Assembly (NCBI GenBank): GCA_905479105.1
Contig: CAJQLE010000004.1
Location: forward strand, 124,001-188,000
Reading direction: 5' to 3'
DNA length: 64,000 nucleotides
DNA from: an uncultured Flavobacteriales bacterium
GTDB lineage: Bacteria; Bacteroidota; Bacteroidia; Flavobacteriales_G; Salibacteraceae
Both the position numbers and the translations under genes were made by a program. The notes below the pieces were generated by a model. It worked only from the letters and a program-made list of their open reading frames with translations. It did not search any database and was not told the DNA's origin. Shown piece by piece: positions 29,708 to 59,799 of the stretch. Position 1 is the stretch's first letter. Each line of letters starts with the position of its first letter.

Positions 29708-31477
29708 ATGTCAAAACAAGAAATCGTAGATGAACTTCAAAGTTGGATAGCGGATGAAACTTTCATTCCAAATCGCGACCGCATTGATCAGTATCAAACG
29801 GCATTTAACACTTTGAAAAGTGAATCCGAGAAGGTTCAGCTAGAGGCTTTTAATGAGGCTAAGGCGGAAGAAGATGAAACCGAATTTGAATATAAAAATG
29901 AACCGGAAGATGCTCGATTTGAGGAATTGTTGTCTATTTATCACGATAAGCGAAAGGCTTTGGATAAGCAAAGAAGAGAGCAGGAGGCTTCTAATCTAAG
30001 TGAAAAACAAGCCTTAGTAAGCGAGTTGCAGTCATTAATTCAAGACGAGGAAAATATAGGGAAAGCCTATAAGAGGTTTAATGCGATTAAGCAGAAGTGG
30101 AATGAGATGGGACCAGTGCCTAACGTTCAGCGCAGAGAGCTTCAAGCAGAGTATAGTAGATTGATTGAGTTGTTTTATTACAACATCAACATATATCGTG
30201 AGTTGCAGATTAATGATCTTAAAAAGAATCAAGAACTGAAGCAACAAATCACTGAAAAGATAGCCCTTCTAGAAGAAGAGAAGTCCATCAATCAAGTGGA
30301 TACACTCATTCATCAATATCTTGACGAATGGGATCAAGTTGGTCCTACTTTTCAAGAAGAATGGGAGAAAATTCGCGATGATTTCAAAACTGCAGTAAGC
30401 AAAGTCTTCGATAGAATTCGCGAACATCGTAAAGAGGTTAAGGGTGAACACGATGGGCATTTTGCTCTGAAGAGAGAACTTGTGTCCAAGGTGGAGGAGA
30501 TTTCTAAAAAAGATCTTACAGAGGTCAGGGATGTTCAATCATGGACGAAAGAGGTAATTGATATCCAGAAGCAATGGAAGAAAATTGGTTATGCTGGTCG
30601 AGGTAAGAACGATAAAGTATGGCACGAATTCAGACAAGCCTGTGATGCCTATTTCGCGAAGCGGGATGTTTTTCTAAAAGAAAGTAACGCGGAATTTAAA
30701 AACGCTAGAGATAGAAAGCAGGTTTTAATCGATAAAGCGAAAGAAATATATGAAGGTGAAGATCATGTAATGGTCGCCAATCAGCTAAAAGGACTGCAGA
30801 GGGAATGGAAAATTGCAGGTAAGTTGCTTCCCCAAGAGGAGTACAAACTCTTTAGAGAATTCAGGAAATATTGTGATCAATTCTTTAATCGAAAAAAGAA
30901 GGAAGAAGAGGCATTTGTTAAGGAAGCTAAAGAAAATCTTGCATCGAAAGAAGCCTTATTGACAAAATTTGCTGACGATTTAAAAGCAGGAATTAAGGAG
31001 AAAGGTGAAGCCGCTATTTCTGAATGGCGAAGCGAATGGTCGGCAATAGGAAATGTTGAACATAAATTAAAGAGCAAGATTGATAAGGCTTTTGAAGAGA
31101 TAATAGGTAAAGCGTATGAATCTCTAGGAATTTCCAAGAAAGATTTGGCTAAAAAACGATTTGAAAGTAAGCTTGAAATGCTTGCTAGTGATGATAATGC
31201 GGATGATGCACTTATAGAAGAGCGCAACAGAATTGGTCAGAAAATAAGAGAGACTCAAACGAATTTGGCCCAAGAAGAAGGGAAGTTGGACTTTTTCAAG
31301 TTTTCAAATGATTCGAACCCTTTGAAGGCTGAATTACTGAAGAGAATTGAAGCTGTAAATATTGAAATATCCGAACTTAAATCCCGCAAGAAGCAAATAG
31401 ATCTGACCATTAAAGGAAAGAAAAAGGAGGCTGAAGAATCTACAAATGCTGCTGAAAATGAAGAGGTTGATGGTTAG
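29708..31477 (+). CDS. DUF349 coiled-coil protein
   Basis: A 589-residue cytoplasmic protein, largely helical and very rich in Lys and Glu. It contains at least four DUF349 units, recognisable by an IKQKWNEMGPVP, YLDEWDQVGPTF, IQKQWKKIGYAGR and LQREWKIAGKL pattern (W, five or so residues, G) spaced by 70-75 residues. The C-terminal 80 residues form a long coiled coil. DUF349 proteins are common in Bacteroidota and Actinobacteria; none of this length has a clear role that I know. The stop overlaps that of a convergent lipoprotein gene by four bases. Confidence 0.88.
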   Translation: MSKQEIVDELQSWIADETFIPNRDRIDQYQTAFNTLKSESEKVQLEAFNEAKAEEDETEFEYKNEPEDARFEELLSIYHDKRKALDKQRREQEASNLSEKQALVSELQSLIQDEENIGKAYKRFNAIKQKWNEMGPVPNVQRRELQAEYSRLIELFYYNINIYRELQINDLKKNQELKQQITEKIALLEEEKSINQVDTLIHQYLDEWDQVGPTFQEEWEKIRDDFKTAVSKVFDRIREHRKEVKGEHDGHFALKRELVSKVEEISKKDLTEVRDVQSWTKEVIDIQKQWKKIGYAGRGKNDKVWHEFRQACDAYFAKRDVFLKESNAEFKNARDRKQVLIDKAKEIYEGEDHVMVANQLKGLQREWKIAGKLLPQEEYKLFREFRKYCDQFFNRKKKEEEAFVKEAKENLASKEALLTKFADDLKAGIKEKGEAAISEWRSEWSAIGNVEHKLKSKIDKAFEEIIGKAYESLGISKKDLAKKRFESKLEMLASDDNADDALIEERNRIGQKIRETQTNLAQEEGKLDFFKFSNDSNPLKAELLKRIEAVNIEISELKSRKKQIDLTIKGKKKEAEESTNAAENEEVDG

Positions 31478-31680
31478 TTTTTTTCACATATCCAAGGACC
31501 ATTCCCAATGGTATCTGTTTCAAGCTCATTAATAAGGCCCGAAATATCTCGATCTTTTCCGCATACATTTTGACTCGTTTCTCCAAAATCATCGGTTTGC
31601 ACTGTGCATTTATAGCATTTGTAGCATGATGAAAGTGAGAATATCAAACAGGTCAAAATAATTATTGAGCAAGACTTCAT
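31474..31680 (-). CDS. Cys-rich small lipoprotein (family member 1)
   Basis: 68 residues. A signal with lipobox LSSC puts the lipid on Cys19. The mature part begins CYKCYKCT, with Cys22 and Cys25, then Cys40 and Cys65 close to the C-terminus (GPWICEKN). The same pattern, lipid Cys-X2-Cys-Tyr-X-Cys-Ser/Thr, a middle Cys and a Cys three to four residues from the end, recurs in three genes at 56-60 kb. There are four Cys besides the lipidated one, enough for two disulfides or a metal site. The residues after the lipid Cys are basic, not the acidic surface-export signal. Function unknown. Confidence 0.75.
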
Positions 31681-55874: not shown

Positions 55875-56297
55875 CTAGTCTCTGGAAATTCTATGAATAT
55901 CGTTGTTCTGCTCTTCGATCTCTTGTTTAACTTGATTCATTTTTTTGGCTAGCATAGCAAAAAGCTTAAAACCTGTTTTATTTAATTCTTCATAAACGTC
56001 TTCATGGCCATCGCCAACTAGAGCCATTTTAAATAAAAGTTCAAACTGATGATCTTTTAGCCATTTCAGCGCATCCCTATTCCCTTCAATGCCATTGATT
56101 AGTGCTAGAAGGTGAGAAGACTTGTTATCAAGTAACCATTTTCTGCTGCGGTCCTCGTTACGTAAGGCGAAATGAAAAAGCCCCAATTCCGAATACCCAT
56201 TCTTCATAAGCCACTCTGTAATCTTCTTGTTTCCAGAGATACTCTCACCCCATGCGACTAAAATTTTTGTGTCGTAATTGAGTCCCTTTTGAGTCAT
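55875..56297 (-). CDS. Small helical-repeat protein, unknown
   Basis: The start is the ATG at 56297 (MTQKGLNYDTKILVAWG), giving 140 residues without a signal; a longer frame would add a doubtful 31 residues. The sequence can be laid out as about four units of 22-27 residues with a conserved WL or WLK helix: KKITEWLMKNGYSELGLF, RSRKWLLDNKSSHLLALI, DALKWLKDHQFELLFKMA, VYEELNKTGFKLFAMLA. This suggests an alpha-solenoid like fold of unassigned type. Convergent with the MORN gene at two bases. Confidence 0.6.
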   Translation of the reverse strand: MTQKGLNYDTKILVAWGESISGNKKITEWLMKNGYSELGLFHFALRNEDRSRKWLLDNKSSHLLALINGIEGNRDALKWLKDHQFELLFKMALVGDGHEDVYEELNKTGFKLFAMLAKKMNQVKQEIEEQNNDIHRISRD

Positions 56298-56354
56298 TTT
56301 ACTAAAAAATATTTTATTCAGAATCGAATGTAGACAAAGCGCAAGAAACAAAAA

Positions 56355-56385
56355 TTTGATGATTTGTATTTTACGGTTACATTTG
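56355..56385 (+). promoter_or_regulatory. Complete promoter of small lipoprotein 2
   Basis: TTTG (56355-56358), 19 bases, TACATTTG (56378-56385). This is the best match in the window to the Bacteroidetes -33/-7 pattern. A leader of about 25 bases rich in A (AATAAATATAAAAA) precedes the ATG at 56415, typical of strongly translated genes in this phylum. Confidence 0.65.
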
Positions 56386-56414
56386 CGCATTGCTAACCAA
56401 TAAATATAAAAAAT

Positions 56415-56603
56415 ATGAAAAAGTTATTCTTTGTTGCTGCTGTTGCAGTTGTCGCTCTTTCTTCTTGTAAAAAAGATTACACATGTACTTACGAAGAGGA
56501 TTTCTTCGGAACTACAATTACATCAACTGCTACATGTACTGCATGTTCTAGTAGTGACGTTGATGATCTTGAGGCTACAGGATACACGTGTGTTGCGGAT
56601 TAA
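56415..56603 (+). CDS. Cys-rich small lipoprotein (family member 2)
   Basis: 62 residues. Signal with lipobox ALSSC, lipid on Cys18. The mature start CKKDYTCT has Asp where the paralogues have a Cys; remaining Cys are 24, 41, 44 and 59. It shares the closing pattern with member 1 (GYTCVAD against GPWICEKN). It has its own strong promoter and terminator, so it may be made at a high level. Function is unknown. It stands 75 bases before the MauE-thioredoxin gene. Confidence 0.78.
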   Translation: MKKLFFVAAVAVVALSSCKKDYTCTYEEDFFGTTITSTATCTACSSSDVDDLEATGYTCVAD

Positions 56604-56624
56604 TTAATCTCCACACGAAAATTT

Positions 56625-56658
56625 AAAAAGGGGGAATCTAGTATTCTCCCTTTTTTTT
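56625..56658 (+). terminator. Terminator after small lipoprotein 2
   Basis: AAAAAGGGGGAAT (56625-56637), five bases, ATTCTCCCTTTTT with a further U run to 56658; the one mismatch allows a G-U pair. It lies between the lipoprotein stop and the MauE-thioredoxin start. Confidence 0.8.
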
Positions 56659-56678
56659 ATGCTCAATAATTATCGCGT

Positions 56679-57575
56679 ATGAAGGTGTTGTTCATTTTGT
56701 TAAGAGTTCTTTTTGGCTTATTATTTATAAGCTCTGGGGTTCTTAAATTATTTCCCTTAGATTATTTTGAGTTGATTTTAGTCGATCAAGTTGGCTTATC
56801 TTGGAACGTAGTGCCTTTTTTTGCTCGATTTGTTATTTGGACTGAAATAGTCATTGGTCTTTGTATAGCGTTTTCTTTCAGGCTTAAATGGAGCTTGATC
56901 TCAAGTTTGATTATGCTCGTAGGGTTTACACTTTATTTATTTTTTCAAGTATTCAATGGCAATGGAGCTGAGGATTGTGGTTGCTTTGGAGAACTAATAC
57001 CGCTGGATGGTCCGTCCAGTATTATCAAAAATTTAATATTTATTCTCATCGGAAGCGGCCTGCTTATTATGAAATCTGCAGCTGCTAAGTGGAGATGGTC
57101 AATCGCGGCTCCAATTCTTTCGTTAATTACTATACCAATAATTGTAGGTTTTTTTCCTCTTCCTGAATATAATTCGGACGCGGATTTTGAGTTGGATATT
57201 GAATTGTTAGAGCGAAGTGAATTTCCTGACTCGCTTCAGTCTATTGCCAATGGTCGTAAAGTAGTTGTAGTAATGTTGGCAAAATGTATTCACTGTGCTC
57301 AATTGGCTTCACTTATTGCTCAATTAGAGCCAGAAGAAGTGAATGATGATTTACGCATTATCGTCATGGGTAAAGACGAGGCCATTGATTTTTTTATTCA
57401 TGAAACGAATATTGAAGATTTTCAAATCTCAAGATCATCTGATCGCGAATTACTCGGTGCAATAGGAGGGACGTTTCCAACAGTGATATTTGCAGATAAT
57501 GGCGAAGTGAAAAGTAAGTGGAAAGGTCAAGATGTAAATATTAAGTTGTTGAATGAATTACTTCAACTAGACTAA
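56679..57575 (+). CDS. MauE/DoxX membrane protein fused to a thioredoxin-like domain
   Basis: Residues 1-130 are four membrane helices of the MauE/DoxX type, including the conserved DCGCFG (Cys100, Cys102). A fifth hydrophobic segment (140-160) leads into a thioredoxin-like domain (about 170-298) with a CIHC active site at Cys203-Cys206 and a GGTFPTVIFA cis-Pro loop. MauE-like proteins move electrons for periplasmic disulfide chemistry. It is placed 43 bases before the third small Cys-rich lipoprotein and is likely in one operon with it; a role in oxidising or reducing those proteins is inferred. Confidence 0.82.
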   Translation: MKVLFILLRVLFGLLFISSGVLKLFPLDYFELILVDQVGLSWNVVPFFARFVIWTEIVIGLCIAFSFRLKWSLISSLIMLVGFTLYLFFQVFNGNGAEDCGCFGELIPLDGPSSIIKNLIFILIGSGLLIMKSAAAKWRWSIAAPILSLITIPIIVGFFPLPEYNSDADFELDIELLERSEFPDSLQSIANGRKVVVVMLAKCIHCAQLASLIAQLEPEEVNDDLRIIVMGKDEAIDFFIHETNIEDFQISRSSDRELLGAIGGTFPTVIFADNGEVKSKWKGQDVNIKLLNELLQLD

Positions 57576-57618
57576 GACTATATTCGTCTCTACATTGTTA
57601 AAGTTGACATTTAGTCTT

Positions 57619-57837
57619 ATGCGCAAGCTTATTTTATTCTCTGTTTCAATTGTATTTCTCGTTTTGGGAAATGGCTGTAAGAAGTGCTATAGATGCACCG
57701 TACTTGATGAAGATGCCTCTTCAATTTATGAGTATCCTGATATTTGCGGTTCAAAAAGTGAGTATAATTCTTACGAGGAGCGATGCGTGACTGAATATGG
57801 AGCGTTTGATTTTACTTGCTCTTGTGCGGAGATATGA
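57619..57837 (+). CDS. Cys-rich small lipoprotein (family member 3)
   Basis: The start is the ATG at 57619 (MRKLILFSVSIVFLVLGNGC); the lipid would be on Cys20 and the mature part begins CKKCYRCT, then Cys43, Cys56, Cys67 and Cys69. It is the most Cys-rich of the four (six besides the lipid Cys). Cotranscribed with the MauE-thioredoxin gene upstream and coupled by an ATGA overlap to the serine hydrolase lipoprotein downstream. Function unknown. Confidence 0.78.
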   Translation: MRKLILFSVSIVFLVLGNGCKKCYRCTVLDEDASSIYEYPDICGSKSEYNSYEERCVTEYGAFDFTCSCAEI

Positions 57838-58961
57838 TTTCCCAAGTTTTAAAAAGCCTTTTTAGAACCCCGATTTTAGGGGGTTTTTTATTTATGCTGA
57901 TGGTGTCTTGCGGCAATCAGTCTGTTTCTGACACAGTTAAAAAAGATATTCTTGAACTTGTTGATACAAGCGGTACAAGCGGCTTAGCAAATCCAGCTAT
58001 ACTTCATTACTTTGATTCTTTGGCTGCAAAAGGAAAGTTTAATGGAGTTGCTCTTTTTTCCAAGATTGCCGAACTTACTGAACTGAGCGAGGGGTTCAGA
58101 GAGAAAAGTAAAGGAGATTCCCTTTTATTGGATGATCAGTTTCAGCTGGCTTCGCTGTCAAAGCCAATAACAGCATTTGGGCTTTTGTATTTAGTCAATG
58201 AGGGTAAGATTGAACTGGACAATCCAGTTGTTAGCTATCTATGGGATTTTCCGTATCCGGATATTACGGTGAGAAGTTTGATGAACCATACAAGTGGCAT
58301 GGGGAACTATATTTATGTTACTGATAGCTTATGGAATGACCCTGATTCTTTCATGTCCAATAAGGATATGTATAATATTCTGCGATGCGAGCAAGTGCCA
58401 ACCTACTATCAGCCCTTCAAACGTTTTAATTATTGCAATACCAATTATGCATTGATTCCAGTTTTGATAGAAGAGGTATCTGGATTAACATTTTCAGACT
58501 TCATGCGAATGAACATTTTTGAACCTCTAGGCATGCTTTCCACTTTTTATTATGATCCTGCCTACGTTCAAGAATATGATGTTCTTGGACATTACCCGGA
58601 TGGGTCAACCAAGAAGCCATTTTATTTAGATGCCATAATTGGAGATAAAAGTCTTTATAGCTCGGTCCATGATTTGTACAAATTTTACGAAGAGGTAAAA
58701 CATCCAACCCTTGTTTCGAAAAGTCTGCTAGATCAATCAATGTCAATTGAAGCCAAAACGGGATCAAATAGCTATTATGGGCTAGGGTGGCGTATTCGAC
58801 CTATGGATGACAGTGATACGCTCATATACCACAACGGCTGGTGGCGTGGATTTCGGTCATATTTTTGGATGTCAAAGAATAGTGATAAGGTTGCAATAAT
58901 ATTGACGAACTCTATTCGAGGGGGCTATTTAAATCAAAAGGAGATTTGGAATTTATTTTAA
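57834..58961 (+). CDS. Serine hydrolase lipoprotein (beta-lactamase class C fold)
   Basis: The start is the ATG at 57834, overlapping the previous stop as ATGA; the lipobox LMVSC anchors Cys26. Penicillin-binding motif 1 SLSK (QLASLSKPITAFG) and motif 2 Tyr-Cys-Asn in FNYCNTNYALIP are present, with LMNHTSGMGNYI between them and YHNGWWRGFRS at the HxG position. Such proteins act as esterases, peptidases or on peptidoglycan peptides; true beta-lactamase activity is less likely. A hairpin with a U run lies within the signal-peptide codons. Confidence 0.87.
   Translation: MISQVLKSLFRTPILGGFLFMLMVSCGNQSVSDTVKKDILELVDTSGTSGLANPAILHYFDSLAAKGKFNGVALFSKIAELTELSEGFREKSKGDSLLLDDQFQLASLSKPITAFGLLYLVNEGKIELDNPVVSYLWDFPYPDITVRSLMNHTSGMGNYIYVTDSLWNDPDSFMSNKDMYNILRCEQVPTYYQPFKRFNYCNTNYALIPVLIEEVSGLTFSDFMRMNIFEPLGMLSTFYYDPAYVQEYDVLGHYPDGSTKKPFYLDAIIGDKSLYSSVHDLYKFYEEVKHPTLVSKSLLDQSMSIEAKTGSNSYYGLGWRIRPMDDSDTLIYHNGWWRGFRSYFWMSKNSDKVAIILTNSIRGGYLNQKEIWNLF
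57866..57889 (+). promoter_or_regulatory. Terminator-like hairpin inside the serine hydrolase gene
   Basis: AACCCC, eight bases, GGGGTT followed by a U run, in the lipoprotein signal codons. It could end a part of the transcripts from the MauE-thioredoxin/lipoprotein 3 operon before the hydrolase, or act as an attenuator. The stem is only six pairs. Confidence 0.35.
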
Positions 58962-58989
58962 ACTCTTTGCTCTCCTTAAGCGTTTACCT

Positions 58990-59595
58990 ATGGTGAATAA
59001 ACCAGAACATCATATTCCTTTTTTTCCGCTCAACATCTTTTTGTTACCCGGAGAGCAAATGCCGCTGCACATTTTTGAGCCGCGTTACAGACAGCTTTTT
59101 AATGAAGCTGAATCAGAAAATGTTCAATTCGGGTTGCCCTTCGAAGATGCTAACTTAAAGCGAGGATATGTCAGTATTTGCCGCCTACTTGAAGTGTCTA
59201 AGCGCTATGCAACGGGAGAATTGGATGTGATAATAGAGTCGCTTACAATAGGTAAGCTAAAGTCATTTGAATCTGCATATCCTTCAAAACTTTATCCTGG
59301 TGGTGTCGTGATTAATGAGAAAGACTCCTATTTGAATACAACTCCAATAGACGAAGTGTCAGAGGCTTTTGAGAAGTATATATCCCTTATAGAAGGAAAG
59401 ATGCCTCTTGATGTCACAGATTTTCGATTGGTTGATATTGCTGCAAGCTTGAAGTTGAGTAGCACTGATAAAATCAAATTAATCGATACTGAAAACGTAG
59501 ACAAGCAGAACTCAATACTTCTCAGAAACTTAAGGTACATGAACCTTTTATTGGATCAGGAGAAAAGTATAGAGAACGGGTTTATTCTTAATTAA
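58990..59595 (+). CDS. Lon N-terminal domain protein
   Basis: About 200 residues with the Lon substrate-binding domain only: HHIPFFPLNIFLLPGEQMPL and HIFEPRYRQLFNEA are the classic opening, followed by FGLPFED and GYVSICRLLEV. No ATPase or protease domain is attached, as in stand-alone bacterial Lon-N proteins (and in part cereblon). Its partner is unknown. Cytoplasmic. Confidence 0.88.
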   Translation: MVNKPEHHIPFFPLNIFLLPGEQMPLHIFEPRYRQLFNEAESENVQFGLPFEDANLKRGYVSICRLLEVSKRYATGELDVIIESLTIGKLKSFESAYPSKLYPGGVVINEKDSYLNTTPIDEVSEAFEKYISLIEGKMPLDVTDFRLVDIAASLKLSSTDKIKLIDTENVDKQNSILLRNLRYMNLLLDQEKSIENGFILN

Positions 59596-59799
59596 CTACT
59601 GAACCCTGCACGTAGCACCTTCATTTTCGCGATCTTCTACCTCCTTACCTTCTGCTGTGCAAAATTCTTCAACATTTTCGCTAACGCCTAATGAGTCACC
59701 AGAGCCATCGGTTAAGAGAAAATCTGTGCTGCATTCATAACATTTAGAACAAGCACTTAATGATGAAGCGAGAACCGCAAGTATTAGAAGCTTTTTCAT
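59596..59799 (-). CDS. Cys-rich small lipoprotein (family member 4)
   Basis: The start is the ATG at 59799 (MKKLLILAVLASSLSAC); the lipid Cys17 is followed by SKCYECST with Cys20 and Cys23, then Cys47 and Cys64 three residues from the end (GATCRVQ). The pattern is that of member 1. It lies 27 bases after bshA on the same strand, so it is probably expressed with the bacillithiol gene. Acidic mature part. Function unknown. Confidence 0.78.
   Translation of the reverse strand: MKKLLILAVLASSLSACSKCYECSTDFLLTDGSGDSLGVSENVEEFCTAEGKEVEDRENEGATCRVQ

Follow-up and report, generated by a model that had tools for sequence, protein, structure and literature searches.

A MauE-thioredoxin fusion linked to small cysteine-rich lipoproteins across the class Bacteroidia, a putative disulfide-forming module

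The window that we analysed is a stretch of 64,000 nucleotides from an uncultured Flavobacteriales bacterium, and it carries a gene for a membrane MauE domain fused to a thioredoxin domain, set between the genes of two small cysteine-rich lipoproteins, with the gene of a third farther downstream (Table 1). The preliminary description of this DNA had placed three lipoproteins of 62-72 residues here and the fusion, recognized by its DCGCFG and CIHC motifs, between the first two; we confirmed these open reading frames and motifs. Its further claim that the lipoproteins share one arrangement of cysteines stood only in part. All three have a lipobox, and the lipid cysteine is followed by 4, 6 and 4 further cysteines in A, B and C, but their pairwise identity is 23-38% and, as judged by sequence comparison, they are three distinct families rather than one. 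The proposed clustering is likewise sound for lipoprotein B, whose gene starts 43 bases past the end of the fusion gene on the same strand, but not for lipoprotein C, whose gene is on the opposite strand at a distance of 2 kb.

Table 1. Features of the cluster, with positions in the window.
Feature	Position	Strand	Remarks
Lipoprotein A, 62 aa	56415..56603	+	Lipobox; mature CKKDYTCTY..C..C..C; lipid Cys plus 4; type A family
Intrinsic-terminator-like hairpin, 13 pairs, with T-run	56625..56655	+	In the gap between the lipoprotein A and fusion genes
MauE-thioredoxin fusion, 298 aa	56679..57575	+	5 predicted membrane helices, then thioredoxin domain
DCGCFG motif, residues 99-104	56973..56990	+	Predicted periplasmic loop
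Thioredoxin domain, residues 171-297	57189..57569	+	Fold as in Mtb DsbF and ResA (Foldseek, VIA-align)
CIHC active-site motif, residues 203-206	57285..57296	+	Both Cys invariant
Lipoprotein B, 72 aa	57619..57837	+	Lipobox; lipid Cys plus 6; type B family
Lipoprotein C, 67 aa from its ATG	59596..59799	-	Lipobox; lipid Cys plus 4
Fourth small Cys lipoprotein, CYKCYKC..C..C	31474..31680	-	Lipid Cys plus 4; adjoining redox gene absent

A pattern scan of the window recovered four small lipobox reading frames with at least four further cysteines. Because 100 dinucleotide-preserving shuffles gave only 0.18 such reading frames per window, we do not regard them as products of chance. The LPAM_1 profile scored 16.3 bits for lipoprotein A and 14.8 bits for lipoprotein C, below its cut-off of 20; the lipobox is visible in all, and alignments showed its cysteine to be invariant among homologues of the lipoproteins. 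No Pfam or NCBIfam model recognized these families above its cut-off. For the PG1828 family lipoprotein model (NF050142), which has a threshold of 50 bits, lipoprotein A reached 14.8 bits and those type A relatives that matched reached about 21-25. An AlphaFold2 model of lipoprotein B (mean pLDDT 81) found no match in the PDB, which is no proof of a new fold. Elsewhere in the same genome, more small cysteine lipoproteins were seen at G000:C4:248603, C4:59863 and C1:81312 (L223-L225).

The MauE part of the fusion was identified over residues 1-129 by PF07291 (84.5 bits, 1e-23; cut-off 27). The thioredoxin domain scores under the Pfam sequence cut-offs, yet it is clear in the predicted structure, an AlphaFold2 model with a pLDDT of 87. 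When this domain was compared with known structures by VIA-align, M. tuberculosis DsbF (3ios; Z 13.5) was closest together with ResA, the ResA variants, a CPHC one included, giving Z values of about 12.5. In the model the CIHC motif stands where the first helix begins (helix 204-213), as expected of a TlpA/ResA/DsbE-like thioredoxin fold. All four motif cysteines, the CGC pair and the CxHC pair, are invariant in a 36-row alignment of fusions. The loop that holds the CGC pair averages 0.28 K/R and 3.06 D/E and the opposite loop 2.53 K/R; with the CGC side acidic and the opposite side basic, the charge rule predicts that the CGC pair faces the periplasm and that the thioredoxin domain lies on the same side. 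The fusion reached 60.5 bits with the model of the BT_3928 family (NF045576), for which the cut-off is 250, and had no match to the VKOR domain PF07884. As a separate observation, the MauE part (56679-57065) folds like the animal receptor chaperone NACHO/TMEM35A (PDB 9h9e; Z 12.5 over 116 residues, rmsd 2.5), with the caveat that helical bundles reach such Z values by common arrangement alone. No VKOR or DsbB structure was listed for this part by VIA-align, a result that excludes nothing.

PepE, MORN, beta-lactamase-like and LON-domain genes neighbour the fusion. There was no plasmid match and no relative in the PDB by sequence, and a search for phage and defence families gave no match worth trust. 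Upstream of the block lies a gene (55875-56390, minus strand) for a protein of 140-171 aa that is conserved in the genus and carries the pattern GxxYDxKxLLAWGESIxGNxKITEWLxKNG; no Pfam or NCBIfam family matched its product above cut-off. The fusion itself was found in 13 of 13 genomes of the genus and in 21 of 35 of the family. Within the genus, each fusion gene is followed on its own strand by a type B lipoprotein gene, mostly after 41-43 bases, and is preceded by a type A gene wherever upstream sequence exists. Type B relatives share seven invariant cysteines in alignment, and 20 of the 21 strong ones adjoin a fusion. At loci from four other genera of the family (L016, L018-L023) the outside genes differ and type A is still beside the fusion. 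Exceptions occur in both directions: the fusion of one family member (L017) has no adjoining lipoprotein, and in one genus (L044) the block retains lipoprotein B and has lost the fusion. Across the genus, lipoprotein C keeps a place some 2 kb past the fusion; this conservation is by position only, and its tie to the fusion is weak. Two other arrangements were seen. In a family genome without a nearby fusion, four different small cysteine lipoproteins stand in tandem (L060, 4077-4954), and in several genomes of the genus orphan type A lipoproteins adjoin a gene for a TerC-like membrane protein (L047, L049-L051).

Co-occurrence with MauE-thioredoxin genes had been set by the preliminary description as a test of the association, and loss of the cysteines among orthologues as grounds for refuting it. 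The cysteines proved invariant in the alignments of both types, five of them across 36 type A sequences, and the test of co-occurrence was positive. In a census of 295 genomes the fusion was present in 61, type A in 71 and both in 54 (Fisher p 5e-36). Since the training set of the type A profile used there (A7) overlapped the tested genomes, we repeated the test with a profile built solely from the organism's own family (A3) and left that family out. Type A was then detected in 50/57 genomes with a fusion versus 14/229 without one (p 4e-35), the latter being 14 genomes outside the family in which type A stands without a detected fusion. These counts treat genomes as independent and are not corrected for phylogeny. 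Type A was located within 1.5 kb of 41 of 65 fusions, on the same strand in all 41, its usual position being about 70-130 bp upstream. Most of 27 further fusion loci from other families (L174-L200) adjoin a small lipoprotein with the lipid cysteine and 4 or 6 more, and two distant metagenome-assembled genomes (L077, L090) have the full sandwich of A, fusion and B amid different outside genes. In four genomes (G313, G266, G153, G081) fusion and type A co-occur though their adjacency has been lost. Many type A paralogues are encoded at other sites in the genomes without an adjoining redox gene; a single enzyme with many clients would fit this pattern but is not proved by it. The link between fusion and lipoprotein is real and extends widely. 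We found no description of the lipoprotein family or of this pairing in the databases and openly available papers that we searched.

We also considered which part of the fusion is the steadier partner. MauE as the constant partner was rejected, as several genomes have just a membrane thioredoxin next to the lipoprotein. In several genomes where type A was present and no fusion was detected at the cut-off, type A adjoins a membrane protein of 197-232 aa whose terminal thioredoxin domain carries CPxC or CPHC (L201, L203, L204, L210) or CKYC (L045); at L213, also among these genomes, the neighbour is a MauE fusion with CGYC. At L046 the fusion has lost the CGC motif and still has CPFC and the lipoprotein. 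The thioredoxin is the steadier partner, therefore, because it is kept beside the lipoprotein where the fusion is undetected or its CGC motif is lost. At two loci of another family (f53; L206, L207) the genes near type A include an acetyltransferase-like one and one for a protein of 658-707 aa, which has a CHWC motif and may be a further thioredoxin-like partner. The fusions of a sister clade, which have CEHC or CDHC and are common in Flavobacteriaceae, had an adjoining lipoprotein in 0 of 56 cases. On a tree of 105 fusions these sequences form one well-supported group, and the adjacency label changes 8 times over the whole tree. A motif rule setting CEHC against other CxHC motifs was rejected, since essentially one clade is involved and one CEHC fusion (L175) does have lipoproteins. 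With that exception, absence of the lipoprotein is a property of the clade and the contrast amounts to about one event. From these sequence comparisons the fusion and lipoprotein appear to be mostly co-inherited.

We propose that this cluster is a module dedicated to forming the disulfides of these lipoproteins, resembling MauE and its thioredoxin-like counterpart MauD. This is in our judgement the probable reading, held with some reserve, for the chemistry and its direction are inferred and there are no redox data. The linkage supports the earlier inference that the fusion acts on the lipoproteins, but it does not show whether it oxidises or reduces them and does not extend securely to lipoprotein C. 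In the proposed scheme an exported lipoprotein would arrive in the periplasm with free thiols, and the tethered thioredoxin domain, its CxHC pair oxidised, would donate a disulfide to it. Re-oxidation of the thioredoxin domain would then fall to the CGC pair in MauE, which would pass the electrons to quinone or another membrane acceptor, taking the role that DsbB or VKOR fills elsewhere, and the folded, disulfide-braced lipoproteins would proceed to the outer membrane. The layout of the genes suggests unequal amounts of the two products. A terminator hairpin with a T-run was found in 24 of 32 homologous gaps between lipoprotein and fusion, versus 2% of mononucleotide shuffles. Because the terminator stands between the two genes, an abundant client and a scarce enzyme are the natural reading, for which there are no transcript data: the hairpin would stop most transcripts, leaving the lipoprotein in excess, and the enzyme would be supplied by slight read-through or from its own weak promoter.

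The number of cysteines bears on what such an enzyme would do. Non-lipid cysteines were even in number in 106 of 110 non-redundant small lipoproteins, with counts of 2, 4 and 6 all seen; of the four with an odd number, one runs off its contig and one is apparently a spurious antisense reading frame. Among larger cysteine-bearing lipoproteins in the same DNA, the number was even in 19/47 and odd in 28/47. The search pattern demanded at least two cysteines near the N-terminus and so partly selects for a cysteine signature, though not for even over odd. Since the numbers are even, disulfides are favoured over thiol carriers, and the disulfide-stabilised peptides that the preliminary description had listed among several alternatives gain support. 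Its suggestion of surface exposure does not. The LES signal for surface export requires negative charge just after Cys +1 (PMC5080379). The net charge at +2 to +6 was negative in only 22 of 148 of the lipoproteins, mostly being neutral or positive, and the LES charge criterion is not met. As these N-termini are unlike LES, we place the lipoproteins facing the periplasm, as a guess.

Other explanations were weighed against this scheme. The fusion could instead be a reductase or isomerase that takes electrons through its MauE part and reduces or reshuffles lipoprotein disulfides in the manner of DsbC, CcmG or ResA. The CxxC proteins of the TlpA/ResA fold do include known reductases, which is a caveat for a disulfide-forming module, and proteins with 4-6 cysteines may need isomerisation. 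We nevertheless think a reductase or isomerase unlikely, because no electron-feeding partner recurs in a neighbourhood that varies between families, because P, V, I, S or K mostly fills the second place of the motif, where the sister clade that has no lipoproteins carries E or D, and because neither DsbB nor VKOR was found as a source of oxidation. Profiles for VKOR (PF07884) and DsbB (PF02600) each detected nothing in the organism's own genome and a single case among the 35 genomes of the family. Less credible still is that the lipoproteins bind metal or carry thiols and the fusion keeps or recharges those thiols. The invariant C-x-C and two further cysteines could form a Cys4 metal site, and four is also an even number, so that parity alone cannot separate such a site from disulfides. 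That reading, which we consider improbable, fits poorly with the spread of cysteine counts and the six invariant further cysteines of type B, with the lack of an invariant histidine next to the cysteines and, for a carrier, with the fact that one cysteine pair would suffice. It is very improbable, too, that the fusion makes the disulfides of lipoproteins that act as secreted antagonists or are peptide natural products. They are small and cysteine-rich, they occur in several diverging tandem copies (L019, L021, L194), and the Streptomyces mauE genes beside cysteine-rich precursors have been read in this way (PMC7794033). Against this, the lipobox and hence the anchor is retained, recurrent genes for immunity, proteases or export are lacking alongside, and the genomic location is stable rather than mobile. 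That fusion and lipoprotein are functionally unrelated and adjacent by descent alone we can scarcely credit: the adjacency label changes so few times on the tree that the many adjacent loci do represent few independent events, but the pair persists over deep divergence while the outside genes change, co-occurrence outlasts adjacency, and in several genomes where no fusion was detected a thioredoxin still adjoins the lipoprotein.

The disulfide-forming module remains our preferred explanation, and the oxidase function that it assigns to the fusion is inferred only from cysteine parity, motif and gene pairing. The type A paralogues without a redox gene, the type B lipoprotein at L044 and the type A genomes without a detected fusion also count against it. 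A broader version, in which MauE-thioredoxin fusions are a disulfide pathway of the Bacteroidia that replaces DsbB or VKOR and the small cysteine-rich lipoproteins are its dedicated, abundant clients, is tentative and may well not hold. Because nearly the whole family is without a detected DsbB or VKOR, the route to envelope disulfides there is open. Were the proposal correct, MauE, whose role has so far only been surmised, would gain a natural substrate, a protein of about 50-70 residues, and many unnamed small proteins would gain a predicted partner.

Several known systems resemble parts of this arrangement. NACHO/TMEM35A shares the fold of the MauE part but is an animal receptor assembly factor without a thioredoxin domain. 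The BT_3928 family and the CEHC/CDHC fusions of Flavobacteriaceae and Ignavibacteria are homologous to the fusion and have the same domain order, yet they make up a separate clade with no adjoining lipoproteins. VKOR-thioredoxin fusions and DsbB/DsbA would work alike, with one cysteine pair in the membrane protein and another in a periplasmic thioredoxin fold, although their membrane domain differs from MauE. In Streptomyces, mauE homologues (and one mauD) likewise lie beside small genes, here for precursors with at least 8 cysteines in putative RiPP clusters, and the portion of that paper available reports neither a lipobox nor a fusion for them (PMC7794033). Methylamine dehydrogenase genes were absent among the fusion neighbours at the loci examined. 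One published proposal, which speaks for an oxidase, is that MauE makes the disulfides of the cysteine-rich subunit of that enzyme (PMC7794033). The MauE/MauD system of Paracoccus denitrificans (van der Palen 1997, cited in PMC7794033) likewise has a MauE domain and a small cysteine-rich client. MauD is the thioredoxin-like partner there; in the cluster presented here, by contrast, the two redox parts form a single fused protein and the client is a lipoprotein.
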